A stretch of DNA of 12,453 nucleotides from a bacterium (GTDB lineage Bacteria; SM23-81; DAOVCL01): positions 1 through 12,453 of the forward strand of contig JAOZPP010000086.1 in the NCBI GenBank assembly GCA_029932675.1, written 5' to 3'. Under the pieces are notes generated by a model. That model did not search any database, was not told the origin of the DNA, and saw nothing but the letters and a program-made list of their open reading frames with translations. The position numbers were made by a program, and so were the translations under genes. This document shows positions 105 to 12,391 of the stretch, piece by piece (position 1 is the stretch's first letter; each line of letters begins with the position of its first letter).

Positions 105-728
105 TCAATGCAATATCCCCAGCCAATCGGTCATCAGGAATTGCACCCTGCCAATTAAGAGGGATATCCTGGACATCACCGTATACCCAAAGGTGGCTCC
201 GAATCCAATCATAATGAACCAGATACCTATCTTAGCGGAAACCCCCAATACACCTTTATGCTCAGCGGAGAAGAAGAAGTAAATCAAGGAAGTCAGCACT
301 CCGAATATGATGAAAAGGCTCATCCATCCTTGGTACGAGTGGAAGTTAACCGGCAACATGGTAGCCTGTATCTGTCTGATTATTAGGGTGTGCATAATGG
401 GGGGGATCCCCAGGCCTGAGGCCGTTCCCAAATAGAATGCTATAGCCCATCTGCTAATCCAAGAATATTTTGGGACATATCTGGCCCACATAAAGAGACC
501 GAGGATCATTGGAAAAATCAAAACCAAATGCCCTTGTTGGAAAAGGGGGATGATAAGTTTTGGCTTAACTATCTGAAACCACATGGTTACTACATAGTAA
601 CCACCAGCAAGTCCGATCACGAGGTGCTCAGCAAACTTATAAAATGGATTGTCTTTGTAAAGAAAGGAATAGACAAAGAGGGTCAAAAAGGCTGCAACCC
701 AAATTCCTATGTTAGACGAGATATGCAT
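105..728 (-). CDS. Module 1 protein D: six-helix membrane protein of unknown function
   Basis: The 207-residue hydrophobic protein has about six predicted membrane helices (near residues 7-23, 35-52, 67-83, 92-110, 134-153, 167-185). It is the paralogue of the genes at 3514-4113 and 6925-7527. Shared motifs are YKDNP-x-YK just after helix 1 (24-31), FFFSAEHKG at the end of helix 5 (151-159), GYTVM-x-RISLLIGR (181-194) and the C-terminus DWLG-x-LH (201-207). Charged and polar residues inside or beside helices, such as Glu156 and His157, are candidate functional positions because they are kept in all three copies. ATG start 9 nt after the stop of C1, with a G-rich SD (GGGGGTAAG) before it. It is the last gene of the operon seen here. 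I do not recognise a named family. Confidence 0.9.
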   Translation of the reverse strand: MHISSNIGIWVAAFLTLFVYSFLYKDNPFYKFAEHLVIGLAGGYYVVTMWFQIVKPKLIIPLFQQGHLVLIFPMILGLFMWARYVPKYSWISRWAIAFYLGTASGLGIPPIMHTLIIRQIQATMLPVNFHSYQGWMSLFIIFGVLTSLIYFFFSAEHKGVLGVSAKIGIWFIMIGFGATFGYTVMSRISLLIGRVQFLMTDWLGILH

Positions 729-737
729 CTTACCCCC

Positions 738-1574
738 CTATTTACCCTTAGTGCTCTTGGCTCGTTTGCCCAAAATATAACCTATATTCCCGATGACTAT
801 AAAGAAGACAATTAGTAAATGAGCCATATTTTGTCCATCCATCCCCTTGGTGGCCATATCCGGATGTCTGATCAGCTTCTCGTATTCGGCCGCCCCCTTG
901 AGGCCTCCAAGAAGACCCACAAGCTGTCCAGATTGAAGGTATTTGTAATAGTCTGTAGCCATAACTGCGGTAACACCGGCCCCAATGGGAACTCCATACC
1001 TTCCCCCCGCATAGATCACCCAGGTGTCAATGATCCCGCTGCCCGATATAGTTATCACTATCTTGAGGTCTTTATAGTTCTTTATTCCTCGCATCATTGG
1101 GATATCTTCCATACTGGTGCCGTAGTAGTCGTTAGGAAAGGCCAAGCGGAAATTCTCTCCCATTGACAACATTACCGCTCCCGGTGCCGGCTTGTAGCCG
1201 AGGAAAACGTAGTCCTCTCCGTTTTTCTTTTCATACTCCCGGGCGGCCTGAGTAAGCGCCATCTCTGCAGTACCCAATCCCTCTGGCCTGGCTAAACTGG
1301 TAACCATCACTTTTATCCCCTTGCCGAAACAGTGTCTAAGAATACCCAAAGCCATAGGGTGACATTCCGCCATAGTGGATGGGTCATAATCAAGGGAAAG
1401 GAGGATAGCCTCTCCTGGTTTTAAACTATCGATGAACTCATAGAGGTGTCTTACCTCTTTGGTCACATTTATGGGAAGGAGCAATGGTTTGAGAAGGGGA
1501 ATGATCACCGAAACTGCTATGAGGATGAAAAGGATCCTCCGATCGATGGACATCATCTTTTCGTATATGTTCAT
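738..1574 (-). CDS. Module 1 protein C: membrane-anchored alpha/beta protein, divergent copy
   Basis: The 278-residue protein has a membrane helix at about 14-33 and another near 250-268. Basic residues flank both outer ends (IDRR before helix 1; KRAKSTKGK after helix 2), which by the positive-inside rule puts the central domain of about 210 residues outside the cytoplasm. That domain alternates beta- and alpha-like segments and keeps the family motifs DYDP-x-TM, RHCF-x-KGIKV, GYK and GLLGGLKGAAEYE. Unlike C2 and C3, it has GAGVTAV where they have a cysteine (GCTAV), GSGIIDTW where they have SAG-x-PG, and an extra cysteine in ECHPM. ATG start with AAGGAG 7 nt upstream; the B1 stop is 11 nt before the start. 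Function unknown. A specialised or decaying paralogue are both possible, though the frame is intact. Confidence 0.9.
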   Translation of the reverse strand: MNIYEKMMSIDRRILFILIAVSVIIPLLKPLLLPINVTKEVRHLYEFIDSLKPGEAILLSLDYDPSTMAECHPMALGILRHCFGKGIKVMVTSLARPEGLGTAEMALTQAAREYEKKNGEDYVFLGYKPAPGAVMLSMGENFRLAFPNDYYGTSMEDIPMMRGIKNYKDLKIVITISGSGIIDTWVIYAGGRYGVPIGAGVTAVMATDYYKYLQSGQLVGLLGGLKGAAEYEKLIRHPDMATKGMDGQNMAHLLIVFFIVIGNIGYILGKRAKSTKGK

Positions 1575-1585
1575 AGTTCTTCTCC

Positions 1586-2212
1586 TTACTTTCCTCCACC
1601 GAGGTAGGACCTTTCAATGCCCAAGATTATCTTCAACGCTGTAGAGAGCATCCCTAATCCTACTCCTAAGCCGATAGCCCTCTTAGCTACCATATTGGGA
1701 TAATCTAATAACCAATTCGAAATTACTCGGATCGGAGACCAGATCTTGGCCCCGATGGGGACTCTACCGATCATTACGATGATGGCAGCTAGGAGGAGAA
1801 GGGTAGCGATAAACGATCTGGCTCGAAAGGCTCTGTATGCTGCTGAAGCGATGAAGAAAGCTAAAAGGGAAAACATAGTTGCTTGGATAGGGTTTTGTGC
1901 GTAGATAAATATCTGCATAAATGGCTTGTCAGAGGCCATCCCGCCAAAGAAGAGACCAGCAATGGCCATCATGACCAGTCCTAATAAGGCTACTAAGCTG
2001 TATCCCCACCCCTCTTTTTGGCGTTTCACCTTCTCTGTGTGATGGGTTACCAGGCTGCCGATACCTAAAACCAACACGAAGCCCCCAACGATCATTTGCC
2101 AGTCCAGTACCCCCCGGTATATCTCCTGAGAGATCTGATGAGGGATGAAATACTGAATGATCATCACCACACCACCGATAAAGGTTATGGCCAGTGGAAT
2201 CTGTCTCCTCAT
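1586..2212 (-). CDS. Module 1 protein B: six-helix membrane protein of unknown function
   Basis: The 208-residue protein starts MRRQIPLAIT like B3 and has about six hydrophobic segments (near 5-24, 38-57, 69-90, 110-128, 133-149, 174-195). Family motifs are a GWGYS turn before helix 3, LLAFFIASAAYRAFRAR at helix 4 and after, VMIGRVPIG, and the C-terminal ILGIERSYLGG. The basic RAFRAR segment probably sits on the cytoplasmic face. Start ATG with AAGGAGG 5 nt upstream, and 14 nt after the stop of A1. Paralogues are at 4972-5631 and 8361-8981. The conserved arginine in GIER and the short Gly-rich end suggest a contact with another module subunit, but this is inference. I do not recognise a named family. 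Confidence 0.9.
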   Translation of the reverse strand: MRRQIPLAITFIGGVVMIIQYFIPHQISQEIYRGVLDWQMIVGGFVLVLGIGSLVTHHTEKVKRQKEGWGYSLVALLGLVMMAIAGLFFGGMASDKPFMQIFIYAQNPIQATMFSLLAFFIASAAYRAFRARSFIATLLLLAAIIVMIGRVPIGAKIWSPIRVISNWLLDYPNMVAKRAIGLGVGLGMLSTALKIILGIERSYLGGGK

Positions 2213-2226
2213 AGAACCTCCTTGGT

Positions 2227-3432
2227 TCAGTGACCTACAGTAAAGAGGTTTATAAAGGTATCAAAATGAAAGCTGGCGAAGAAACCCCCAAGTATAATTA
2301 GAGCGATGAGCCCCGCCTTCCCCCAGTCCTGGGCCTTGATTGAACCCAAGAGTTTCGGCTCTCGAGAAAGATAGGCGGAGGCGGCATAGAACTCTTCCCC
2401 GATTAGGGTATAATCACAAGAGGTGATAAAGAAAGGCAACTGGGTTACCGCGTCGGTCCCCGCAATCTGGATGGATCCGGCGATGTTGCCGGTTTCAGCT
2501 AAGATAAGGGACTCCGCATAGAACATCCCCAAGTAGAAGTTGGTCGCCGTTTTCTCTCTCAGCATTATCCCATTAACCCCAGCAGCATAGGCGAACTGGG
2601 AGCTGGAGAGAAACCAGATATTGCTCTCATCGTAGCTGTCTGGCCGGCCAGCATCTAAGTAGGCGTTCTTCACTACCTCCTGGGCTACAGTCATAACTAT
2701 GGGGTTGTAGCAGGGGACCAGAAGTTTGCTTTGGAACTCAGCAACCTTCTTGGCTACCCTTCCTAAGATGGTCAAGGAGGCTATGGTGGCTACATCTGAT
2801 ATGGTGCTTAGGCCGAGGATATAGAGGATGGGTCGGCCCATCTCAGTGGCTCTGCCCACAGCCTCATCTACGGCATCCATCCCTGGTATGGGCCTTACAT
2901 AGAGTTTCTTCCCCTTTTTGGCACTCTCCACGAAGTAGATTACTAAGGCGGTGAAAATGACCACAAAAATTAGCACAACCGTCTTACCTTTGTGATACCA
3001 CTGGCCGCTGGCCTGGACAGGACCCACGGTGGGTGAGTCGGAAGAGGTATGATCCTTAGCCCTTACCTTGTAGAAATAATTCCTCCGGTTTTTTACCTTA
3101 TCATCTTGGAAGGTGGAGATACCAGCAACCACCGAACCCACCACTTCGAACTTCCCTTCTTGAGACTCTGACCTCAAGATGTCATACCCCTTGACTATGT
3201 TCCTTCCTGCTCCATCATCCGTCGAGAGCTTCCAATTGATAGTGATGTTTTTCCCCGCATCGTTGGGGGTGTCAAAGGCGGTTACTTCTGTGGGAGGGGA
3301 GGGGGGGAGAGTGTCGACTGGGGATTGCGCCCGAATCGTTCCCCAGAGAGCCAGTAGGATGATGAAAGCCGTCAGTGGGAGGACCTTCCGTCTCCACTTG
3401 CATTTCTCTTTGGTCCAAAATCTTGTGTCCAA
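2227..3432 (-). CDS. Module 1 protein A: Fn3 and DUF6754-like membrane protein, TTG start
   Basis: From the TTG at 3432 the protein has 401 residues, nearly equal to A2 (400). An SD (AAAGGAGG, 3440-3447) sits 7 nt before this TTG. The ATG at 3465 in the same frame has no SD and would add 11 residues ahead of the signal peptide. Layout: signal peptide about 14-35 (possible cleavage after IRA), Pro-rich DTLPPSPP linker, one Fn3 domain about 47-140, helix about 150-168, cytoplasmic domain about 175-370, C-terminal helix about 372-388. The cytoplasmic domain resembles what I recall as DUF6754, with motifs DAVDEAVGRATEMG, AESLILAETG, QLPFFIT and CDYTLIGEE. This copy is the outlier: TISDVATIAS replaces the DD-(I/V)-QTIAG kept in A2 and A3, and REKTAT replaces REKPAA. 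Role unknown. It begins the distal module, 81 nt after D2. Confidence 0.88.
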   Translation of the reverse strand: MDTRFWTKEKCKWRRKVLPLTAFIILLALWGTIRAQSPVDTLPPSPPTEVTAFDTPNDAGKNITINWKLSTDDGAGRNIVKGYDILRSESQEGKFEVVGSVVAGISTFQDDKVKNRRNYFYKVRAKDHTSSDSPTVGPVQASGQWYHKGKTVVLIFVVIFTALVIYFVESAKKGKKLYVRPIPGMDAVDEAVGRATEMGRPILYILGLSTISDVATIASLTILGRVAKKVAEFQSKLLVPCYNPIVMTVAQEVVKNAYLDAGRPDSYDESNIWFLSSSQFAYAAGVNGIMLREKTATNFYLGMFYAESLILAETGNIAGSIQIAGTDAVTQLPFFITSCDYTLIGEEFYAASAYLSREPKLLGSIKAQDWGKAGLIALIILGGFFASFHFDTFINLFTVGH

Positions 3433-3439
3433 CGAATTC

Positions 3440-3447
3440 CCTCCTTT
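3440..3447 (-). promoter_or_regulatory. Ribosome binding site that sets the TTG start of A1
   Basis: AAAGGAGG on the minus strand lies 7 nt upstream of TTG at 3432. It lies inside the frame if the upstream ATG at 3465 is used, so it argues for the TTG start. The resulting N-terminus is a normal signal peptide and matches the length of A2, which also starts with TTG. Confidence 0.75.
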
Positions 3448-3513
3448 CTTTCCTGAGAGTTCCATCCACTACAAAAAGTTTGGAGAAAGGTAAATGCCGT
3501 AAATCAATTCATC

Positions 3514-4113
3514 TCAATGCAAGAGCCCCAACCAGTCGCTGAAGAGGAAATGCATTCTGCCTATAAGAAGCGAAATCCTGGCCATCACTGTATAGCCAAA
3601 AGAGGCACCAAATGAGACCATAATAAACCAGATTCCTACCTTCGCCGCCCCACCCAATAGGCCCTTGTGCTCGGCGGAGAAGAAGAAGTAGATCAACCCA
3701 GTAATCACCCCTACGATCATCATAATGTTCCCTATCGAATTGAGGGGAGCCAGGGTCCCTCGTATCTGCTTCATCACATTACTCTGTAGATAGACTATAA
3801 AATTTAGACCTGCTCCAGTTCCGATCATAAAAGCAACTGCCCAACGGCTTAGCCAGCCAATTTTGGGAATCAATCGGAACAGCATCATCACCCCTAAGAT
3901 GCCGGCTACGGCATACCACCATTCCCCCTTCTGCAAATTGCCCAAAAGGTTTGGTTCTATCACATTATAAATCATATACACAAACCAATATGCAGCGGAG
4001 ACGCCGATGAAGATCGATTCGGAAACCTTATAAAACGGATTATCCTTATAGAGAAAGCTGAGTATCCCCAAGGTAAGGAAGGCGGCAATCCATACACCTA
4101 TATCTGTACTCAT
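3514..4113 (-). CDS. Module 2 protein D: six-helix membrane protein of unknown function
   Basis: The 199-residue polytopic protein is a paralogue of D1 and D3. Helices lie near 5-21, 34-52, 66-80, 90-110, 128-145 and 158-178. It keeps YKDNPFYK (22-29), FFFSAEHKG (143-151), GYTVMARISLLIGR and the DWLGLLH end. It differs from D1 and D3 in having SES where they have AEH just after the first motif, so that histidine is not essential to the family. The start ATG overlaps the TGA of C2 (ATGA, 4110-4113), which implies translational coupling. Its last 26 nt are identical to those of D3 (6925-6950). Family unnamed; a structural or channel-like subunit of the module complex is only a guess. Confidence 0.9.
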   Translation of the reverse strand: MSTDIGVWIAAFLTLGILSFLYKDNPFYKVSESIFIGVSAAYWFVYMIYNVIEPNLLGNLQKGEWWYAVAGILGVMMLFRLIPKIGWLSRWAVAFMIGTGAGLNFIVYLQSNVMKQIRGTLAPLNSIGNIMMIVGVITGLIYFFFSAEHKGLLGGAAKVGIWFIMVSFGASFGYTVMARISLLIGRMHFLFSDWLGLLH

Positions 4114-4952
4114 CTTTTCTCTCCCTTCCTGACAACAAAGAAAGCAATATTTCCAATAATGATGAAGATGACAATTACAAGATGGGCGATGGATTGGGAA
4201 GGCATATATCGAATCCCTGTCCCCGATGACTTAGTTAACCATTCATAATCCGCTGCTCCCTTTAATCCACCCAAAAGACCTGACAGTTGTTTGGTTTGTA
4301 GATAAGGATAAAGCATAGGAGCACTGACCGCGGTACACCCAGCGGCCATCGGGACATGGAATCTGTCATGGGCGAACATCACCCAGGCCGGAGTCCCGGG
4401 ATCCCCAGCAGAAAAGTCCAATACAAAAGTAATATCATTGAAGTTACGAATTCCCTTCATTAGGGGCAATTTCTCTATGGGGGTACCGGCCATATCGGTG
4501 GGGAAAGTAGCTGGTATACTAGTCCCCATAGATTGGATGACAACTGCCCCACCTGCCTTATACCCTAAGTTTACATAGTCCTTTCCATATTGGAGATTCA
4601 TTTCCTTAAACTCTTTCTCTTTAAATACTTCCTGTAGAGCCTGTCCCTCCAGAGCCGGCCCTTGCGGCCATAACCCCATAAGGATAACCTTGATGCCCTT
4701 ACGGAAACAGTGTTTCAAAGCCCCGATCATCATCGGTTGAATCTCGGGCGCCGTTCCTGGATCATACTCTCCAGAGATGATTACGGTGGAGCCTTCCGGA
4801 AGTTTTTCTACTGCATTATAGAGCCCTTGGGAGGCAGGGGTTGGGTGCATCTTAAGATGGAAGGGGATAAATAAGGGTACCACTACAGCCCCAGCGATTA
4901 AAATAAAGATAATTCGCCGATCTAAGTTCAACATTCCTCGAAAAAACCCCAC
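4110..4952 (-). CDS. Module 2 protein C: membrane-anchored alpha/beta protein, GTG start
   Basis: The 280-residue protein begins with GTG at 4952, supported by AGGAGGT (4958-4964) 5 nt upstream. An ATG six codons later is less well placed. One helix at about 13-31 and one near 255-272 bracket a central domain predicted to be extracytoplasmic from flanking charges (LDRR before helix 1, VRKGEKR at the C-terminus). Conserved elements are EYDPGT, KHCFRKGIKV, LGYKAGG, GTP-x-EKLPLMKGIRN, DFSAGDPG, GCTAVSAP and GLLGGLKGAADYE. Cysteines in HCF and GCTAV match those of C3 and could form a disulfide outside the cell. The domain looks Rossmann-like by its beta-alpha pattern, but I see no nucleotide-binding loop I would trust. 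It overlaps D2 by 4 nt and follows B2 by 19 nt. Function unknown. Confidence 0.9.
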   Translation of the reverse strand: MGFFRGMLNLDRRIIFILIAGAVVVPLFIPFHLKMHPTPASQGLYNAVEKLPEGSTVIISGEYDPGTAPEIQPMMIGALKHCFRKGIKVILMGLWPQGPALEGQALQEVFKEKEFKEMNLQYGKDYVNLGYKAGGAVVIQSMGTSIPATFPTDMAGTPIEKLPLMKGIRNFNDITFVLDFSAGDPGTPAWVMFAHDRFHVPMAAGCTAVSAPMLYPYLQTKQLSGLLGGLKGAADYEWLTKSSGTGIRYMPSQSIAHLVIVIFIIIGNIAFFVVRKGEKR

Positions 4953-4957
4953 CCTTG

Positions 4958-4964
4958 ACCTCCT
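4958..4964 (-). promoter_or_regulatory. Ribosome binding site that sets the GTG start of C2
   Basis: AGGAGGT on the minus strand, 5 nt upstream of GTG at 4952. It decides in favour of the GTG over the ATG six codons downstream. Confidence 0.7.
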
Positions 4965-4971
4965 TTTTTAC

Positions 4972-5631
4972 CTAGTCACCACCTAAATACGATCTCTCTA
5001 TTCCCAATATTAGTCGCAAGGAGGTGGAGATAATGCCCAGTGCTATGCCAATCATAATTGCCCTCTGAGCAGCCATATTGGGATAAGCCATAATCCAATT
5101 AGCTATAGTAGAAAGGTGCAGCCACTTCAATGGTATCCAAGAGGTAAGATAGTCACCTATAGGCACCCGACCAAGCATTACAAAGAAAGCAGCAGTAAGG
5201 AGGAGGGCAGCTTCCTTGTTCCGGGCGCGGAAGGCGCGGAAAGAAGCGGAAGCCACAAAAAAGGCTAAAAGAGCAAAGACCGTGCTGGTTAAGGGGTAGT
5301 AAACATTGTAGAAGAGATACATAAAGGGGGTACCCTCTTCCAAGGGGGAAGCCTTGCTACCCAACTTGAATGTGCCAATCCCTGCCATAACCAAAAAGCT
5401 GAGGATGATAATTACCGAATAGCCCCATCCCTTTGATCTGCGGTAGACCTTGTCCCCGTTTACAACCATCAGGTTGAGTACCCCCAAAATAATAGCAAAG
5501 GCAGCGATGATCTGGAACCAGGTTTGGAATAGGTCTTGGATTTGATTAAAGGGAGGATGGGGGATGAAATAGGCGATAATAAAGACTACCCCCGTTATTG
5601 CTGTGATAAAAAGGGGAATTTCCCTGCGCAT
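4972..5631 (-). CDS. Module 2 protein B: six-helix membrane protein of unknown function
   Basis: The 219-residue paralogue of B1 and B3 starts MRREIPLFIT. It carries about six hydrophobic segments and the family signatures GWGYS, ALLAFFVASASFRAFRARN, VMLGRVPIG, NW-x3-YPN, AQRAIMIGIALG and the end LRLILGIERSYLGG. The extra length over B1 and B3 comes mainly from loops, around the DYLTSWIPLKW segment and between helices 3 and 4. The start ATG is 16 nt after the stop of A2. Only a weak GAGAGG about 10 nt upstream is visible, so initiation may depend on ribosomes finishing A2. C2 follows after 19 nt. Probably a membrane subunit of the module complex; no named family recognised. Confidence 0.9.
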   Translation of the reverse strand: MRREIPLFITAITGVVFIIAYFIPHPPFNQIQDLFQTWFQIIAAFAIILGVLNLMVVNGDKVYRRSKGWGYSVIIILSFLVMAGIGTFKLGSKASPLEEGTPFMYLFYNVYYPLTSTVFALLAFFVASASFRAFRARNKEAALLLTAAFFVMLGRVPIGDYLTSWIPLKWLHLSTIANWIMAYPNMAAQRAIMIGIALGIISTSLRLILGIERSYLGGD

Positions 5632-5647
5632 AACTTAAGTGCCTCTC

Positions 5648-6850
5648 TTACTGCGTGGTAAAAAGCTGGGAAAAACCGGTGATCCCTAAGGTCTCCAGAA
5701 CAACCCCTAAACCAAGGATAAAGAGGATAATCGCCTTGCCCAGATCCTGTCCCTTGATGCTACCTAAAGCCCTGGGCTCTCGAGAGAGATAGGCCGAGGC
5801 GGCAAAGAGCTCCTCCCCGATCAGGGTGTAATCGCAGGCGGTGATGAAGAACGGCAGTTGGGAGGGCATCGCTGTCCCGGCAATCTGAATAGCCCCCACA
5901 GAGAACCCGGTCTCCGCTAAGATCAGGGACTCAGCATAAAAGGCCCCTTGATAAAAGATGGCCGCTGGTTTTTCCCTGAGCATCAACCCATCCACCCCGG
6001 CAGCATATCCAAATTGGTCGTCTGTGAGATAATGGACGATCTCATCGTTGTAGGCATCCGGATGGCCGCTATCGAGGTAGGCCTCCTTTACCGTTTCCCT
6101 TGCGGTGACCATTACCACCGATCTACAAACCGGCACTTCCAATTTGGTCCCGTATTCAGCAGTGAGCTTAGCTACCTGTCCTAAGATACTCAATCCGGCT
6201 ATAGTCTGGACATCGTCTAAGTCTAAGATCCCAGGGATGAAAAAGACCTTTCTGCCCATCTCCGTAGCCCTTCCCACGGCCTCATTTACGGCGTCTAGGC
6301 CCGCTATCTTGCGGATGTAGAGTTCCTTCCCTGCCCTAGCCCTACTGATGAAATAGACTATGCCTAGGGAGAGGATGAATCCAGCGAGGAGCATATTCAA
6401 TCTCTTAAAGTTAAACCATTGGGCCTTGGAATGAACTGCCTGGCTAGGTGGGGACTCGGATATGTTTACTCCATCGGAAACGCTAACCTTGTAGAAGTAG
6501 TCAACTCCATCCTTCGTAGTAGTGTCCTCATACCTCACTGCCCCAGCAGGCAATTTGGTGATCTCCTTATAGGGTCCCTCTTTCCTCTCTGCCCTGAGGA
6601 TAATGTAGGCCGTCACATCCCCTGCTCCAGTGCCATCATCGGTCGACTTTCTCCAGGTAAGGGTGATACTTCCCCCAGCATCATTAGGGGTGTCAAAGGC
6701 GGTTACCTCCCTTGGGGGGGAGGGGGGTAGAGTATCCAAGTCCTCTGCCCAGGCACCATCCCAGAGAAATAGAAAAAAGATAAAGGCTGCCAGGGGGATT
6801 AACCCCCCTTTCCGACAGCCTCTCCCTTTCCTCCGAAGTTTTTCGCTCAA
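5648..6850 (-). CDS. Module 2 protein A: Fn3 and DUF6754-like membrane protein, TTG start
   Basis: The 400-residue protein starts at TTG (6850), with GAGGAG (6856-6861) 5 nt upstream. Layout: basic n-region and signal peptide 1-35 (cleavage likely after AWA), DTLPPSPP linker 39-46, Fn3 domain about 48-143 with the DTPNDAGGSI-x3-W and ST-DDG pattern, helix about 151-169, basic stop-transfer segment SRARAGK, cytoplasmic DUF6754-like domain about 174-372, and a C-terminal helix about 373-390. Conserved motifs include DAV-x-EAVGRATEMG, LDDVQTIAG, VPVCRSVVM, DQFGYAAGVDG, REKPAAIF, AESLILAETG, QLPFFITACDYTLIGEE and AASAYLSREP. The Fn3 domain is expected outside the membrane and the conserved domain inside. 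It opens module 2, 74 nt after D3, and closely resembles A3. Function unknown; a sensor, scaffold or adhesion-linked subunit are possibilities without direct support. Confidence 0.9.
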   Translation of the reverse strand: MSEKLRRKGRGCRKGGLIPLAAFIFFLFLWDGAWAEDLDTLPPSPPREVTAFDTPNDAGGSITLTWRKSTDDGTGAGDVTAYIILRAERKEGPYKEITKLPAGAVRYEDTTTKDGVDYFYKVSVSDGVNISESPPSQAVHSKAQWFNFKRLNMLLAGFILSLGIVYFISRARAGKELYIRKIAGLDAVNEAVGRATEMGRKVFFIPGILDLDDVQTIAGLSILGQVAKLTAEYGTKLEVPVCRSVVMVTARETVKEAYLDSGHPDAYNDEIVHYLTDDQFGYAAGVDGLMLREKPAAIFYQGAFYAESLILAETGFSVGAIQIAGTAMPSQLPFFITACDYTLIGEELFAASAYLSREPRALGSIKGQDLGKAIILFILGLGVVLETLGITGFSQLFTTQ

Positions 6851-6855
6851 CCGAT

Positions 6856-6861
6856 CTCCTC
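6856..6861 (-). promoter_or_regulatory. Ribosome binding site that sets the TTG start of A2
   Basis: GAGGAG on the minus strand, 5 nt before TTG at 6850. A short inverted repeat (CTCAAT, 7-nt loop, ATTGAG) lies directly upstream, so the site could be affected by local folding. The TTG gives a normal basic n-region and signal peptide. Confidence 0.65.
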
Positions 6862-6924
6862 TTTCCTCAATGCAGTCAATTGAGTCAGTTAGTGGGTAAG
6901 TGATCTATTGTATCCTGCCTCTGT

Positions 6925-7527
6925 TCAATGCAAGAGCCCCAACCAGTCGCCAAGCAGAAATTGCATCCTCCCTATGAGCAGAGAGATCCTCGCCATTACC
7001 GTATAGCCAAAGGAGGCCCCGAAGGCGACCATCAGAAACCAGATGCCCAGCTTGGCTGTGCCTCCTAAGACACCCCGGTGTTCGGCGGAGAAGAAGAAGT
7101 AAATCAAACCGCTGAGCACCCCCACAACGAGGATGATATTGTTAATTTGGCTGAAGTTCAAAAGGCTGGCCCTCACCTGATCCACAGCATTGGTTTGCAG
7201 GTAGGTGATCAAGTAGTAGCCAGAGGTTATTCCTACTATGAAGGCAATGGACCACCGGGAGATCCAACCTATCTTTGGGAAGAGCCTCATCACCATCATC
7301 AGACCCAATATAAGGGGGATGATGAGGAGAAGCTTCCCCTGGTGGAAGAGGGGATTGTAGAGGTTGGGCTTGAAGACATTTTGGTAAAGGTAGCTAACCC
7401 AATATCCGGCAGACACTCCGATGAAGAGGTGTTCAGCCATCTTATAAAGCGGATTATCTTTGTAAAGAAAACTAAAGATGAAGAGGGTTAATAATGCTGC
7501 TACCCATATACCAATAGTATCCGCCAT
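6925..7527 (-). CDS. Module 3 protein D: six-helix membrane protein of unknown function
   Basis: The 200-residue protein has about six helices and the same motif set as D1 and D2: YKDNPLYK after helix 1, MAEHLFIG, FFFSAEHRG after helix 5, GYTVMARISLLIGR and the DWLGLLH end. In SAEHRG the lysine of the other copies is replaced by arginine, so the positive charge is kept. Start ATG with TTAGGAGGAG a few nt upstream; the TAG stop of C3 is part of this SD, so C3 and D3 translation are physically linked. The 74-nt gap after it leads to A2 without a visible terminator. No family name recognised. Confidence 0.9.
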   Translation of the reverse strand: MADTIGIWVAALLTLFIFSFLYKDNPLYKMAEHLFIGVSAGYWVSYLYQNVFKPNLYNPLFHQGKLLLIIPLILGLMMVMRLFPKIGWISRWSIAFIVGITSGYYLITYLQTNAVDQVRASLLNFSQINNIILVVGVLSGLIYFFFSAEHRGVLGGTAKLGIWFLMVAFGASFGYTVMARISLLIGRMQFLLGDWLGLLH

Positions 7528-7535
7528 AACTCCTC

Positions 7536-8360
7536 CTAAGCTTTCCCCTTGTTGCCCAAGAACATAAAGAGATTTCCGATAAAAATAAATAGAATGATCA
7601 CAAGATGAGCTATTGACTGGGCATCCATACCCCCGGCGGCTGCCCCCCTGGCATTCATCAAGGTTTCATACTCAGCCGCCCCTTTCATCCCCCCTAATAG
7701 CCCCACTATCTGCTTTGATTGAAGGTAAGGGTAGTAAGAGGGTGCGCTCACCGCTGTGCATCCCCCCCCGACCTTCACATGATGCCGTCCCCCGGCAATC
7801 ATCGTCCATTCCACTATGCCTGGGAAACCTGCCGAAAGGTCAATAACCAGGTCGATGTTCTTTAGACTCCTTACGCCCTTCATTATGGGTAGCTCCTCTA
7901 AGGGGGTCCCACGAAAGTCAATGGGAAACTGCTGTGGAATGCTCTTTCCCAGGTTGGAGATGAGAACTATATCCCCTGCCTTATAACCCAGGTTTACGTA
8001 ATCCTGACCATAGCTTTTCCCGTAATCCTTAGCTGCTATCTCAAAGGCCTCTTCCCCCAAGGGGACTCCGGTCGGCCAAAGTGCCATTCCGATTACCTTC
8101 AAATCTTTGGCAAAGCAGTGACGAACAAGGGCGATATTCATTGGGTAGAGCTCCGGCATTGTGGTAGGATCATAGTCAAAGGAGATAAGCACTTTCGAAC
8201 CCGGGGGGAGCTGATCAATGGCCTTATACATCCGTTGGGCGGGTTCGCTGACCCTAATCTGCAGACCGATGGGGAAGAGAAGAGGGAGAGCTACAGCTAA
8301 GCCAATCACCAGGAATATTATCCGTCTATCTATCTGCGAGAGCTTCTTCCCCATCCCCAT
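7536..8360 (-). CDS. Module 3 protein C: membrane-anchored alpha/beta protein
   Basis: The 274-residue protein has helix 1 at 13-32 and helix 2 at 251-269; the central domain between them is predicted outside the cytoplasm (KK and DRR before helix 1, NKGK after helix 2). Motifs: FDYDP (61-65), MPELYPM, RHCF (80-83), NLGYKAG (123-129), GTPLEELPIMKGVR (151-164), DLSAG (174-178), GGGCTAVSAP (198-207) and YPYLQSKQ-x-VGLLGG-x-KGAAEYE (210-231). Cys82 and Cys201 match the two cysteines of C2. The coding strand has a run of eight G at the GGG before Cys201, a possible slippage site. The ATG directly follows the TAG of B3, and GGAGGT 6 nt upstream lies inside the B3 3' end. Function unknown; the DYDP and DLSAG acidic clusters are the best candidates for a ligand site. 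Confidence 0.9.
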   Translation of the reverse strand: MGMGKKLSQIDRRIIFLVIGLAVALPLLFPIGLQIRVSEPAQRMYKAIDQLPPGSKVLISFDYDPTTMPELYPMNIALVRHCFAKDLKVIGMALWPTGVPLGEEAFEIAAKDYGKSYGQDYVNLGYKAGDIVLISNLGKSIPQQFPIDFRGTPLEELPIMKGVRSLKNIDLVIDLSAGFPGIVEWTMIAGGRHHVKVGGGCTAVSAPSYYPYLQSKQIVGLLGGMKGAAEYETLMNARGAAAGGMDAQSIAHLVIILFIFIGNLFMFLGNKGKA

Positions 8361-8981
8361 CTATTCACCTCCCAAGTGGGCCCTTTCAATACCCAAGATT
8401 ATCCTCAGGGAAGTGGAGACAACCCCTAAGGCGATGCCGATCATAATGGCCCTCTGACCAGCGGTATTGGGAACCTTCATTATCCAGTCGGCAATCACCG
8501 GAAACTGACCCCACAATGCCTTCCCCATTGGAACCCTTCCTAACATAACCAGAACGGCAGAGATGAGCAAGAGGAAAGCCTCAAAATTTCGTGCCCGGAA
8601 GGCTCGATAGGAAGCAGAGGCAATGAAGAAGGCCAAAAGGGCAAACATAGTGGAACTCATCGGCACATAGAGATGCCAGTAGAGGTAGAAGAAAGAAGTG
8701 CCTGGCTCAATGCCCCACCCAATGCCAGTGATAATCATCACCGTTAGGCCCAAAAGGAGAAGCACACTGTAACCCCACCCCCTCTCCAACCGATATATGC
8801 GATCCCCATGAATCTTTATTAGATTCCCTACCCCCAAGACGATGGCAAAGGCGAAGATGACTATAGCCCAAGTGTTAAATAGATCATAAAGATTGCCCAC
8901 CGGCTTGTGGGGAACAAAGTACTGCACCACCATCACCAACCCTACCACTAAGGTTATGGCCAAAGGTATCTGTCTTCTCAT
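8361..8981 (-). CDS. Module 3 protein B: six-helix membrane protein of unknown function
   Basis: The 206-residue protein has helices near 5-24, 38-56, 69-88, 108-126, 133-149 and 176-195. Motifs are GWGYS (68-72), ALLAFFIASASYRAFRARN (114-132), VMLGRVP (145-151), AGQRAIMIGIALG (174-186) and ILGIERAHLGGE at the C-terminus. Its ATG overlaps the TGA of A3 (ATGA, 8978-8981) and no good SD precedes it, so translation probably relies on re-initiation after A3. That would fix the A3 to B3 ratio. Paralogues are B1 and B2. No named family is recognised; a membrane-embedded subunit of the module complex is inferred from context. Confidence 0.9.
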   Translation of the reverse strand: MRRQIPLAITLVVGLVMVVQYFVPHKPVGNLYDLFNTWAIVIFAFAIVLGVGNLIKIHGDRIYRLERGWGYSVLLLLGLTVMIITGIGWGIEPGTSFFYLYWHLYVPMSSTMFALLAFFIASASYRAFRARNFEAFLLLISAVLVMLGRVPMGKALWGQFPVIADWIMKVPNTAGQRAIMIGIALGVVSTSLRIILGIERAHLGGE

Positions 8982-10144
8982 CCCGTGGTCATCAAGGCCG
9001 TTAAAAAGTGATAGCCTAAGTTCTCTAAGATTACTCCTAAGATGATGATGGCCATAAAGATGGCCTTACCCACATCCTGGCCCTTCAAGGAACCAAGCAG
9101 TCGCGGCTCACCGGAGAGATAAGCGGAGGCAGCAAAGAGTTCCTCCCCGATTAGGGTGTAATCACAAGCGGTAATAAAGAAGGGTAACTGGGATATCTCT
9201 GCCGTTCCAGCTATCTGAATAGCCCCAATGGAGAAGCCGGTCTCGGCTAAGATAAGCGATTCGGCAAAGAAATGACCCATCAAGAAGATGGCCGCTGGCT
9301 TCTCTCTCAGCATAATTCCATCTACTCCAGCGGCATATCCGAATTGGTCGTCAGTGAGATAATTTATCTTATTGGCATCATAGGCATCGGGTCGACCTGC
9401 ATCTAAATAAGCTTCCTTGACTACCTCCTGTGCTACGGACATCACTACCGAACGACACACAGGGACCCTCAAGGTGGTCTCATAGTCAGCAGTCTTGCGG
9501 GCCACCCTCCCTAAAATAGTCATCCCGGCGATGGTCTGGATATCGTCCATATCCATAATCCCAGGGATGAACAGCACTGGCTTGCCCATCTCGGTGGCCC
9601 TCCCTACTGCCTCATCTACAGCATCCAAGCCAGCTATCTTCCGAATAAAAAGCTTTCCTCCAGCCCTCGCCTTTCTAATATAGAGGAGAATTGCCGCAGA
9701 GATTACCAGGAGGACTAAGAGCATATTGGTCCTCTGAGTGTTAAACCACTGGCCCCGTGACCAAACAGGAGAAGACTTGGTCAGAGCACTCTTCCCCTCC
9801 TTTCCAATAGCCTGAACGGCATAGATATATTTGGTACCATCCCTTGTCCCCTCATCCACATACTTGGTTACCCCTGAGCTAACTTCCCCCAAGAGCTGGA
9901 ATTCCCCTCCCTCTGAGGCCCTAAAGATGTGGTAAGTGGTAACCTTACCTGCCGCTTCGTCTGGTGAAACCTCCCAATCTACTGTTATGCTTCCCCCTCC
10001 GTCATTGGGGGTGTCCACAGCAGTAACCTTAGCTACGGGAGCCAAGGCGAGGCTATCCTGTCCGTAAGCTCCCCCAATCCCTAAAAAGAGGGGAAGCGGG
10101 AAGAGAACAGCAAGTAATATTTCGCTTTTCCTTAACCGGTTCAT
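8978..10144 (-). CDS. Module 3 protein A: Fn3 and DUF6754-like membrane protein, first gene of operon
   Basis: The 388-residue protein begins with ATG at 10144. Signal peptide 1-29 (cleavage likely after AYG), Fn3 domain about 37-130 (VTAVDTPNDGGGSITVDW), helix 139-156, basic stop-transfer RKARAGGK, cytoplasmic DUF6754-like domain about 163-360, C-terminal helix 361-378. The cytoplasmic domain carries DAVDEAVGRATEMG (174-187), MDDIQTIAG (199-207), VPVCRSVVM (227-235), DQFGYAAGVDG (266-276), REKPAA (280-285), AESLILAETG (294-303) and CDYTLIGEE (327-335). I recall this domain as DUF6754 (function unknown) from memory, not from a search. There is no SD before the ATG, and the promoter -10 ends 8 nt upstream, so the message is probably leaderless. 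It lacks the DTLPPSPP linker of A1 and A2. It overlaps B3 by ATGA. Confidence 0.92.
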   Translation of the reverse strand: MNRLRKSEILLAVLFPLPLFLGIGGAYGQDSLALAPVAKVTAVDTPNDGGGSITVDWEVSPDEAAGKVTTYHIFRASEGGEFQLLGEVSSGVTKYVDEGTRDGTKYIYAVQAIGKEGKSALTKSSPVWSRGQWFNTQRTNMLLVLLVISAAILLYIRKARAGGKLFIRKIAGLDAVDEAVGRATEMGKPVLFIPGIMDMDDIQTIAGMTILGRVARKTADYETTLRVPVCRSVVMSVAQEVVKEAYLDAGRPDAYDANKINYLTDDQFGYAAGVDGIMLREKPAAIFLMGHFFAESLILAETGFSIGAIQIAGTAEISQLPFFITACDYTLIGEELFAASAYLSGEPRLLGSLKGQDVGKAIFMAIIILGVILENLGYHFLTALMTTG

Positions 10145-10152
10145 CTAAGTGA

Positions 10153-10180
10153 ATTAAAAGCCAAGGGATAAGGTTGTCAA
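10153..10180 (-). promoter_or_regulatory. Sigma70-like promoter of the module operon, leaderless start
   Basis: On the minus strand, TTGACA (10175-10180, perfect -35), a 16-bp spacer, and TTTAAT (10153-10158, 5 of 6 to TATAAT). Only 8 nt separate the -10 from the ATG of A3, so transcription would begin at or within a couple of nt of the start codon. The same 16-bp spacing occurs in the promoter at 11494-11521. Confidence 0.72.
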
Positions 10181-10228
10181 GTGAAAACTTAACTTTTCTC
10201 GTTTTATAAGGATCGTCCCTAATTTGAA

Positions 10229-10271
10229 CTTAAAATAGATAAACTAAACAGCAGCCACACAAGGGCTACCG
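10229..10271 (-). terminator. Probable intrinsic terminator after the KOW-like gene
   Basis: On the minus strand, an 8-bp stem (10264-10271 with 10249-10256, including two G-U pairs) with a 7-nt loop is followed by a T-rich but interrupted tract (TTTAGTTTATCTATTTT). It lies about 70 nt downstream of the KOW-like gene stop and about 50 nt upstream of the operon promoter. It may separate the two transcripts, or leak and allow read-through. Confidence 0.45.
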
Positions 10272-10342
10272 ATTTCACTTATCAATAACTCCTTAAGCCT
10301 CACCGGGAAAGGATTGCCCCAAAAACCCCTGAGTTAGTAATT

Positions 10343-11473
10343 CTACTCCTCAATGGTCTCCACATTGGCCCGCGGGATAATCGCCTTCTCTCCGTCCTCA
10401 AACTCCACCTCTAAGACTCTGGCCTTTGATTCGGTTTCCAGTCTCTGTAGCTGCGGGGGGAGAGCCGAGACCTTTCCCAACCTCCCAAAATAGGGCTGTC
10501 TGATAACCCTTACCGGGCTGCCCACCTGTAGGCCTATACCCTCTAAATCTTCTTCCGACTTGCCCTCTAACCCCGTTCCATCCTGGAGAGGAATAACAAC
10601 CTCTGGTCTAATAACCCCAGCCCTTATCTGGGTCGCTCCATTTATGCAGGTTAACTTCCCTTCTTTTGACTTGAGAAGCTCAAATGTCTTCTCGGCCATA
10701 TCTATCTCCCCAAATCCCTCAGTAATAACTAAGGTAATCCCCAGCTCTTCAGAGCCAGTGATAGCCACTCCCAGATCATAGCCCAGAAATTCCCTCAGGT
10801 CCTTGTCGTTGAAACCTCCAGCTACTACTCCCCTCGCTCCTACCTCAATGGCCTTCTGCAAAGCCTCATAGGTAACCAAGCTTCCCCCCACTATGATCTT
10901 CCCCTGGCAACCTTTGTCTATCTCTGCATCGGTGAGAACCCCACTGGAATCCTCAGTAAGGATGAGCAGCTCCCCATGGGTCTCACCTCCTATGCCAAAG
11001 ATTCCTTGGATAAAGGTGGCCCAGGTTTGAACCATAACCCCCTCCTCAGGGTAAGTCTCCACCACCTCGCCATCTAAATATGCCTTAACCTCTACCGGAT
11101 GGGGTTCCCCTCTTAGGAGAACCTGACCGGTGACATTAGATATGTTCTCCACTATCCCCTTTTCTGGGGCCTTCACTTGGGATTTGAAGAGGCCAAAGAA
11201 GCTCTTGCTGGAGGCAATTACCTCATCCTTCTCTACCTTTTCCCCCTCCTTCTTCTTCATACATTCTGGGACATCCTCCGGGGGGAGGCCCAAGATATTA
11301 GCCACATTAATGGGGATAACATCCCCCGGGAGATGGGTACGAGCTACCACCCTATCGGGGACTACCTTCTCCCCCTTCTCAACTACCACCTCCCCCTTAA
11401 GGGGGAGGATCCTCTTCTTCCTCACCAAAGTCCGCTCAGTGACCTTTAGTCCCGGTGTATATGCATGCGCCAT
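10343..11473 (-). CDS. Soluble barrel-sandwich and KOW-like protein of unknown function
   Basis: The 376-residue protein starts at the second of two adjacent ATGs (11473), 4 nt after AGGAGG; the first ATG (11476) is only 1 nt from it. No signal peptide or membrane helix is visible, so it should be cytoplasmic. Residues about 25-125 look like a lipoyl/barrel-sandwich hybrid (repeated KGE/EGE turns, V-x-KDEVIASS, KAPEKGIVENIS), as in RnfC or the RNA polymerase beta' subunit. The middle (about 165-270) is alpha/beta with GKIIVGGSLVTYEALQKAIE and GARGVVAGG. Residues about 317-375 resemble a KOW/SH3-like barrel (VGSPVRVI, GRLGKVSALP, FEDGEKAIIPRANVE). It has its own consensus promoter and sits directly upstream of the module operon, so it may be a cytoplasmic partner. 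That link is inference; nucleic-acid binding is possible from the KOW-like part but unproven. Confidence 0.88.
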   Translation of the reverse strand: MAHAYTPGLKVTERTLVRKKRILPLKGEVVVEKGEKVVPDRVVARTHLPGDVIPINVANILGLPPEDVPECMKKKEGEKVEKDEVIASSKSFFGLFKSQVKAPEKGIVENISNVTGQVLLRGEPHPVEVKAYLDGEVVETYPEEGVMVQTWATFIQGIFGIGGETHGELLILTEDSSGVLTDAEIDKGCQGKIIVGGSLVTYEALQKAIEVGARGVVAGGFNDKDLREFLGYDLGVAITGSEELGITLVITEGFGEIDMAEKTFELLKSKEGKLTCINGATQIRAGVIRPEVVIPLQDGTGLEGKSEEDLEGIGLQVGSPVRVIRQPYFGRLGKVSALPPQLQRLETESKARVLEVEFEDGEKAIIPRANVETIEE

Positions 11474-11493
11474 CATCCCTCCTATTACAGAGA

Positions 11494-11521
11494 ATTATAT
11501 GAAAAATTTGCCTCCTGTCAA
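11494..11521 (-). promoter_or_regulatory. Consensus sigma70-type promoter of the KOW-like gene
   Basis: On the minus strand, TTGACA (11516-11521) and TATAAT (11494-11499) are both perfect matches, separated by 16 bp. The predicted start site leaves a leader of roughly 13 nt that contains the AGGAGG ribosome site, a very compact and probably strong constitutive promoter unless repressed. Confidence 0.85.
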
Positions 11522-11707: not shown

Positions 11708-11743
11708 CAAAGGAAAAGGCCGCCGAGAGGGATCCCGGCAGCC
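11708..11743 (-). terminator. Strong intrinsic terminator after the DNRLRE-like gene
   Basis: An 11-bp GC-rich stem (11733-11743 with 11718-11728, two G-U pairs) and a 4-nt loop are followed by CTTTTCCTTT on the minus strand. It begins 13 nt after the stop codon at 11757. Position, stem and T-tract all fit Rho-independent termination. Confidence 0.8.
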
Positions 11744-11756
11744 CTGGTTGAGAGGT

Positions 11757-12302
11757 CTACTTGCTTACCTCTTGTGCGGTGTAGTAGACCTCTACCTTAG
11801 CCTTCACCCCTGGGGGAAACTCTGGGTCCTGCACCACGGTGAGGTTCCTTCCCTTCTCTATTAAGGACTTTATGATCAGGCCATAGTTTGGCCTCCCCTT
11901 GGCCCAGGCGGAGAGTATCCCAGTCAGGTCTAAACTAATCCTTTGGCTTTCCTCCCCCGAAATGGTAGAGACGGTCAGGGTGCTGTCGTTGTAGTCTCCT
12001 CCTGGGTTTGCCCACGGGTAGCTCCAGTTTACTGTGCCCATATCCCAACCGGTGGTGAGCCGGTAACCAGCCAGATCCAGGGGCCCTGAACCAGAGTCCG
12101 GTTGGGCTCTGAAGCGTAACTCTGCATAGTCGATTGTGCTCCCCACCAACTGAGAAGGTAGGTCAAACCGCAACAAGAACCTGGTGGTATCACCAGAGGA
12201 TATGGTAGCCATATCGGTCACCTCCACCTCTAAGTTTGCCCCTCTAACCTGCAGGACAAAGGCCACAGCTACAACCAAGCAAATTAATCCCATCCTTTTC
12301 AT
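11757..12302 (-). CDS. Exported DNRLRE-like beta-sandwich protein
   Basis: The 181-residue protein starts at ATG 12302, where AAAAGGAGG (12309-12317) is 6 nt upstream. A longer frame from 12368 would add 22 polar residues before the signal peptide and run into the heptamer repeats, so it is rejected. Residues 1-21 (MKRMGLICLVVAVAFVLQVRG) form a signal peptide. The rest matches the DNRLRE pattern of cell-surface beta-sandwich domains: an early FLLRFDLP strand, the AELRFRA strand, TVNWSYPW, SLDLTGILSAWAKGRPNYGLIIKS, and a final V-x-VYYT strand. Such domains usually occur as parts of larger surface or extracellular proteins; here it stands alone with no sorting tail. It follows the T9SS-type gene by 94 nt without an obvious promoter, so the two may be co-transcribed. 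The terminator at 11708-11743 ends the unit. Confidence 0.85.
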   Translation of the reverse strand: MKRMGLICLVVAVAFVLQVRGANLEVEVTDMATISSGDTTRFLLRFDLPSQLVGSTIDYAELRFRAQPDSGSGPLDLAGYRLTTGWDMGTVNWSYPWANPGGDYNDSTLTVSTISGEESQRISLDLTGILSAWAKGRPNYGLIIKSLIEKGRNLTVVQDPEFPPGVKAKVEVYYTAQEVSK

Positions 12303-12308
12303 CTTCTC

Positions 12309-12317
12309 CCTCCTTTT
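12309..12317 (-). promoter_or_regulatory. Ribosome binding site that sets the start of the DNRLRE-like gene
   Basis: AAAAGGAGG on the minus strand, 6 nt before ATG at 12302. It places the start directly at the signal peptide and excludes the upstream in-frame ATG at 12368. Confidence 0.85.
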
Positions 12318-12339
12318 AGCTAAGCGGTTTTCGTCCTTC

Positions 12340-12391
12340 CCGAACCACGAGCACGAGCAACGATCCACGATTTACGATAGACGATCAACGG
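12340..12391. repeat. Degenerate heptamer tandem array (ACGATNN)
   Basis: On the plus strand the units are a partial CGAACC, ACGAGC, ACGAGCA, ACGATCC, ACGATTT, ACGATAG, ACGATCA and a partial ACGG. Four consecutive units keep ACGAT with two variable bases, and the adjacent ones vary to ACGAG. The period is 7 bp except for one 6-bp unit. It fills the intergenic space between the T9SS-type gene stop (12397) and the DNRLRE-like gene, and encodes nothing I can support. Confidence 0.75.

Follow-up and report, generated by a model that had tools for sequence, protein, structure and literature searches.

The triplicated locus and its gene families

We analysed a window of 12,453 bp that comprises an entire contig (G000:C101). 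Twelve open reading frames on its minus strand run from position 10144 to 105 and repeat the gene order A-B-C-D three times. The first-pass annotation had read them as three modules with order and lengths kept, and the proteins of copies 1, 2 and 3 bear this out (A, 388/400/412 aa; B, 206/219/208 aa; C, 274/280/278 aa; D, 200/199/207 aa). Identity between modules was 43–61% over the twelve frames (A, 49–60%; B, 49–60%; C, 43–51%; D, 53–61%), with similarity 36–62 SD over shuffled sequence; the copies of A, B, C and D are certainly paralogous.

Upstream of the three cassettes lies gene E (10343..11476, minus strand), probably the first gene of the operon, encoding a soluble protein of 377 aa that weakly matches the barrel-sandwich hybrid domain RnfC_N. 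Genes within cassettes are separated by -4 to +19 bp, and the cassettes by 74 and 48 bp. A sigma-70 consensus promoter (TTGACA-16-TATAAT; 11494..11521, minus strand), identified by consensus match only, agrees with the consensus at 12 of 12 positions, whereas the remaining 11 matches in the window score 9. This perfect consensus stands about 18 bp 5' of the start codon of E, which therefore probably opens a single transcription unit that takes in the three cassettes. Further upstream, a gene for a DNRLRE/CBM96-type secreted protein (11757..12368, minus strand) is probably a unit of its own, closed off by a terminator-like hairpin of 13 pairs at 11745-11716 (11716..11745, minus strand), which has the longest stem of 17 matches in a search whose number of matches equals that expected by chance.

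The A proteins (A1, 8978..10144; A2, 5648..6850; A3, 2227..3465; all minus strand) are full-length members of DUF6754 (PF20539), as had been proposed, with 422.6, 407 and 398 bits respectively (398–424 bits against a curated cut-off of 27). The proposed Fn3 domain was backed both by sequence (fn3 E=1.8e-4 in A1) and by fold (Z 13–14). The description of A as bitopic has to be revised: hydropathy, the positive-inside rule and an AF2 model (A1, pLDDT 89.3) place a signal/TM helix, Fn3 outside, a middle TM helix, DUF6754 inside and a second, C-terminal TM helix in that order. Mean pairwise identity was 67% in DUF6754 versus 31% in Fn3, and the 33 to 46 invariant columns of A, among them C327-D328, R182, E185, R280, E295 and E301, fall mostly within DUF6754. 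Outside the membrane the family is variable, with proteins reaching 943 aa, N-terminal extensions in some, and Fn3 absent from several (L034, L035, L037, L039). Fold searches with the whole A model (Foldseek/VIA) returned lists filled by Fn3 and are uninformative on DUF6754. The sole match in PHROGs and PADLOC was of Fn3 to tail fibres, with no defence family, and a search for A homologues on plasmids found none.

Hydropathy and the positive-inside rule give six TM helices for B (B1, 8361..8981; B2, 4972..5631; B3, 1586..2212; minus strand), five to six for D (D1, 6925..7527; D2, 3514..4113; D3, 105..728; minus strand), and two for C (C1, 7536..8360; C2, 4110..4952; C3, 738..1574; minus strand), which has an alpha/beta domain outside. 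Relative to the first copy, identities in copies 2 and 3 were 60% and 49% for B, 51% and 46% for C, and 61% and 58% for D. Neither B, C nor D gave a significant match in Pfam, NCBIfam, PHROG or PADLOC or to PDB sequences, and E likewise matched no sequence of solved structure. A clear match to a known transporter or secretion complex, which would have told against the first-pass annotation, was likewise not seen for B, C or D among these curated families and solved structures. In hhalign comparisons no relation was detected between A and C or between B and D. The extracytoplasmic domain of C is Rossmann-like in the AF2 model (C1, pLDDT 94.6); its best VIA match was to MT0777 (Z 10.2; 139 residues, 3.4 A), followed by CODH epsilon (Z 9.1) and TrkA (Z 9.0), with Foldseek query TM below 0.35, and a search by both programs for a decisive structural relative found none. 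In locus L092 the B protein carries an FG-GAP propeller in the loop that joins TM helices 3 and 4, and this insertion suggests that the loop faces outside.

A-B-C-D as an obligate set, and its partner families

We surveyed 173 bacterial genomes, mostly metagenome assemblies and a non-random sample spread over the bacterial domain. A was found in 46 (about a quarter), and B, C and D each in all 46 of those (Fisher p about 1e-40 for co-occurrence of A–D). Each of B, C and D occurred in at most two genomes without A, as weak or partial matches only: B in G043 (E 2.8e-4), C and D in G096, which also has a divergent B at the locus, and D in G090, a genome 85% complete. Independent occurrence of the families, which would have told against a common complex, was thus not seen beyond these. 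With copies counted by hand and pieces of one frame joined as one gene, each family had 1–7 copies per genome (up to 7/7/7/7), in equal numbers in 42 of the 46 genomes and in 20 of the 23 multicopy ones. The genes also stay together, with neighbours overlapping or within 60 bp in 115–120 of 126 complete cassettes. Linkage alone does not explain the co-occurrence: in G139, a single contig of 6.4 Mb, A, B, C, D and the three partner families described below are all kept, yet A, B, C and D lie far apart, the whole being scattered except for an E-A pair. The four genes A-B-C-D are shown to make up an obligate set that is passed on as a unit. In a collection of species genomes the system turns up at over 570 places, and it was found in none of 14 model or control genomes tested. 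Separately, a stretch of G124 (C38:18271-23215) has four C genes in a row beside one A, B and D, so that C alone is amplified there.

Neighbourhoods of 98 loci yielded three further families: E, a long GlmL-like ASKHA ATPase (PF13941; hereafter MutL-long), and c1, a protein of about 105 residues. The order c1-MutL-E-A-B-C-D recurs in several lineages. E was present in 44 of 46 ABCD genomes versus 0 of 127 others, MutL-long in 43 versus 2, and c1 in 44 versus 2, where the counts of 43 and 44 include split or divergent copies in G033, G037, G063, G132 and G163 (MutL or E) and that of c1 includes a G011 copy broken by stops. MutL-long was not found in the ABCD genomes G010, G061 and G080, two of which also miss E; outside the ABCD set, MutL-long and c1 occur in the same two incomplete genomes, G001 (of the window's genus) and G090. 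The idea of a four-gene complex is supported as regards the A-B-C-D set, but the complete system is larger, comprising seven families with E, MutL-long and c1. These partners are nearly always single (E and MutL-long in almost all genomes) versus 1–7 copies of ABCD. The genome from which the window comes carries c1 and MutL-long (PF13941, 441 bits) on a different contig, G000:C41 (L121 8247-10388). At the same locus (5834-7624 and 7826-10388), a TPR and Peripla_BP_6 protein resembling LppC/LpoA is followed by c20, a short membrane protein, then by c1 and MutL-long; a relative of the TPR protein is also found close to the E-MutL pair of L031.

MutL-long carries canonical ASKHA motifs and matches both NF040745 (GlmL; E=4e-69) and NF040744 (Or-4; E=4e-68). 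It is nonetheless not GlmL, because it is about 600 aa long, scores below the NCBIfam cut-offs (233.5 versus 475 bits for NF040745 and 177.4 versus 204 bits for TIGR01319; also under that for NF040744), and keeps no company with glutamate mutase E. The latter (PF06368) exceeded its cut-off only in G081, G101 (marginally), G110 and G122; the strong matches (G081, G110, G122) adjoin short MutL genes and never the long form, and G122 is the sole ABCD genome among them.

Two kinds of gene fusion support the partnerships: C and D are joined in a single frame on chromosome CP070824 (L093:15637-17352), and MutL and E in five loci (L122–L126). The MutL-E fusion proteins (862–1015 aa) are extra paralogues; at least four genomes have them, and their gene contexts are unrelated. 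The neighbours of the MutL-E genes and of the fusions (arginyl-tRNA synthetase, SAICAR synthetase, PcrB, DAHP synthase, a penicillin-binding protein) pointed to no pathway. Around the system at large, glycine cleavage, shikimate/DHQ and TonB-ExbBD genes are each neighbours in few lineages, and since contexts differ between phyla they imply no pathway. Where they do occur, the c1-MutL-E-A-B-C-D operon comes after glycine-cleavage genes (gcvP) in L071, L074, L077, L078, L085 and L134, and TonB-ExbB-ExbD genes are found downstream of the cassette, at a distance of a few kb, in L085, L071, L078, L086 and L041–L047 (Fermentibacterota, Stahlbacteria/WOR-3).

History of the triplication

To place the three modules, we used a tree of 129 cassettes built from concatenated A–D (1,054 columns; FastTree with local supports). 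Module 1 groups with cassettes of Latescibacterota and Stahlbacteria/WOR-3 (support 83), module 2 with the first cassettes of Zixibacteria (support 91), and module 3 falls in a third class (support 100). Organism labels of metagenome assemblies can be wrong, as for L080, which is labelled Armatimonadetes and groups with Cloacimonadota. Gene by gene, the nearest relative in another genome was of the same class for 64–65 of 65 cassettes, a test not fully independent of the tree from which the classes were taken. Of 64 cassettes in multi-cassette loci, only three, all in L113, had a nearest relative within their own locus whichever of the four genes was compared.

The triplication is ancient, the window's cassettes being three paralogue classes that span phyla and are kept in tandem. 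With classes of this breadth, and with same-locus relatives limited to L113, the paralogues appear from these comparisons to predate the split of several phyla; alternatively, whole arrays may have spread by horizontal transfer. The tandem triplication noted earlier is thus real, but a local or recent origin for it is not: its copies are old classes common to other phyla.

A candidate membrane machine and its relation to known systems

We infer with good support, from sequence comparisons, that the products of A–D assemble into a single inner-membrane complex of about 16 TM helices. A similarly well-supported orientation would put DUF6754 in the cytoplasm, with both the Fn3 domain of A and the Rossmann-like domain of C on the outer side of the membrane. 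MutL-long, E and c1 are, again with good support, likely to be one cytoplasmic set serving every ABCD complex, the sharing being read from copy numbers only. Comparative evidence thus supports the ABCD unit and a shared cytoplasmic set well, and a mechanism can be proposed on top of them. MutL-long would use ATP and, through E, would assemble, reactivate or drive the ABCD complexes; these in turn could act on envelope substrates or partners, with variable ectodomains, such as the FG-GAP propeller in B and the N-terminal extensions in A, setting the specificity of each paralogue. Taken as a whole, we regard ABCD membrane complexes served by a shared MutL-long/E/c1 set, together with this mechanism, as moderately likely to be the best explanation. 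The mechanism in itself, an ATPase-assisted envelope machine with paralogue-specific ectodomains, is a tentative proposal that we hold to be somewhat unlikely.

A reactivase or chaperone role towards cobalamin aminomutases is commonly attributed to GlmL-type proteins, and the clear relation of MutL-long to GlmL could point to a membrane-bound enzyme complex in which DUF6754 is catalytic and MutL-long/E its reactivase or chaperone. The invariant Cys-Asp pair and many other invariant polar residues of A would suit a catalytic domain. Against this, we identified no known catalytic motif or fold, and glutamate mutase E is missing from ABCD genomes save G122, where it stands beside a short MutL; an enzyme is unlikely, if worth serious consideration.

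The divergence of the ectodomains relative to DUF6754, the great length of some A proteins and the propeller inserted in B would also be expected of an envelope sensor or adhesion complex whose Fn3/Ig ectodomains bind outside ligands and whose DUF6754 relays their state inwards. Yet some A proteins do without Fn3, and no output domain or regulator is linked to the genes, which makes such a role quite improbable. An Rnf/Nqr-like ion-translocating redox complex, with E as RnfC/NqrA and B and D as paired six-TM subunits, draws on the weak similarity of E to RnfC_N (E=0.0075, under the cut-off set by Pfam) and on the presence of two multi-TM subunits of about 200 aa. This we consider very improbable: conserved cysteines are absent from B and D, and no cysteine of E exceeds 61% conservation, so that iron-sulfur ligands are lacking; no relation between B and D could be detected; and no Rnf-Nqr family of Pfam was matched. 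Finally, recent local amplification without functional meaning does occur elsewhere, in that the three cassettes of L113 (WOR-3 bin53) are mutually nearest relatives, but it has next to no chance of explaining the window, whose copies differ by 39–57% and sit in three cross-phylum classes.

Returning to an ATPase-served membrane complex, it is possible, short of probable, that the system is a multi-subunit membrane machine of a new class, widespread among little-studied bacteria, whose GlmL-like ASKHA ATPase, together with E and c1, energises or assembles several paralogous ABCD complexes of differing outside specificity. To our knowledge, the only role on record for GlmL-type ASKHA ATPases is that of helping cobalamin mutases, and a tie to a membrane complex, if true, would be a new one; the long form is misnamed by the label 'glutamate mutase L'. 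Seven families are gained and lost together here, in 46 of 173 genomes, with no described function. Our literature search returned no paper naming DUF6754 or PF13941, with MutL mentioned in passing beside a reactivating factor, and none describing the seven-family system.

Among known families, DUF6754 includes A over its full length, but this Pfam family accounts for A alone, with no function assigned to it. MutL-long shares the PF13941 match and ASKHA motifs of GlmL/MutL (TIGR01319, NF040745, NF040744) and differs in length (about 600 versus about 460 aa), in its scores and in its gene company. E resembles RnfC/NqrA-type barrel-sandwich subunits weakly, in its RnfC_N match, and differs in having no fully conserved cysteines and a long conserved C-terminal part without family match. 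ECF-type transporters, in which one shared energising module serves many membrane partners, have an ABC ATPase that the ABCD system lacks and no sequence relation to it, but they provide an analogy of organisation: here too, a single-copy cytoplasmic ATPase set accompanies several paralogous membrane complexes.
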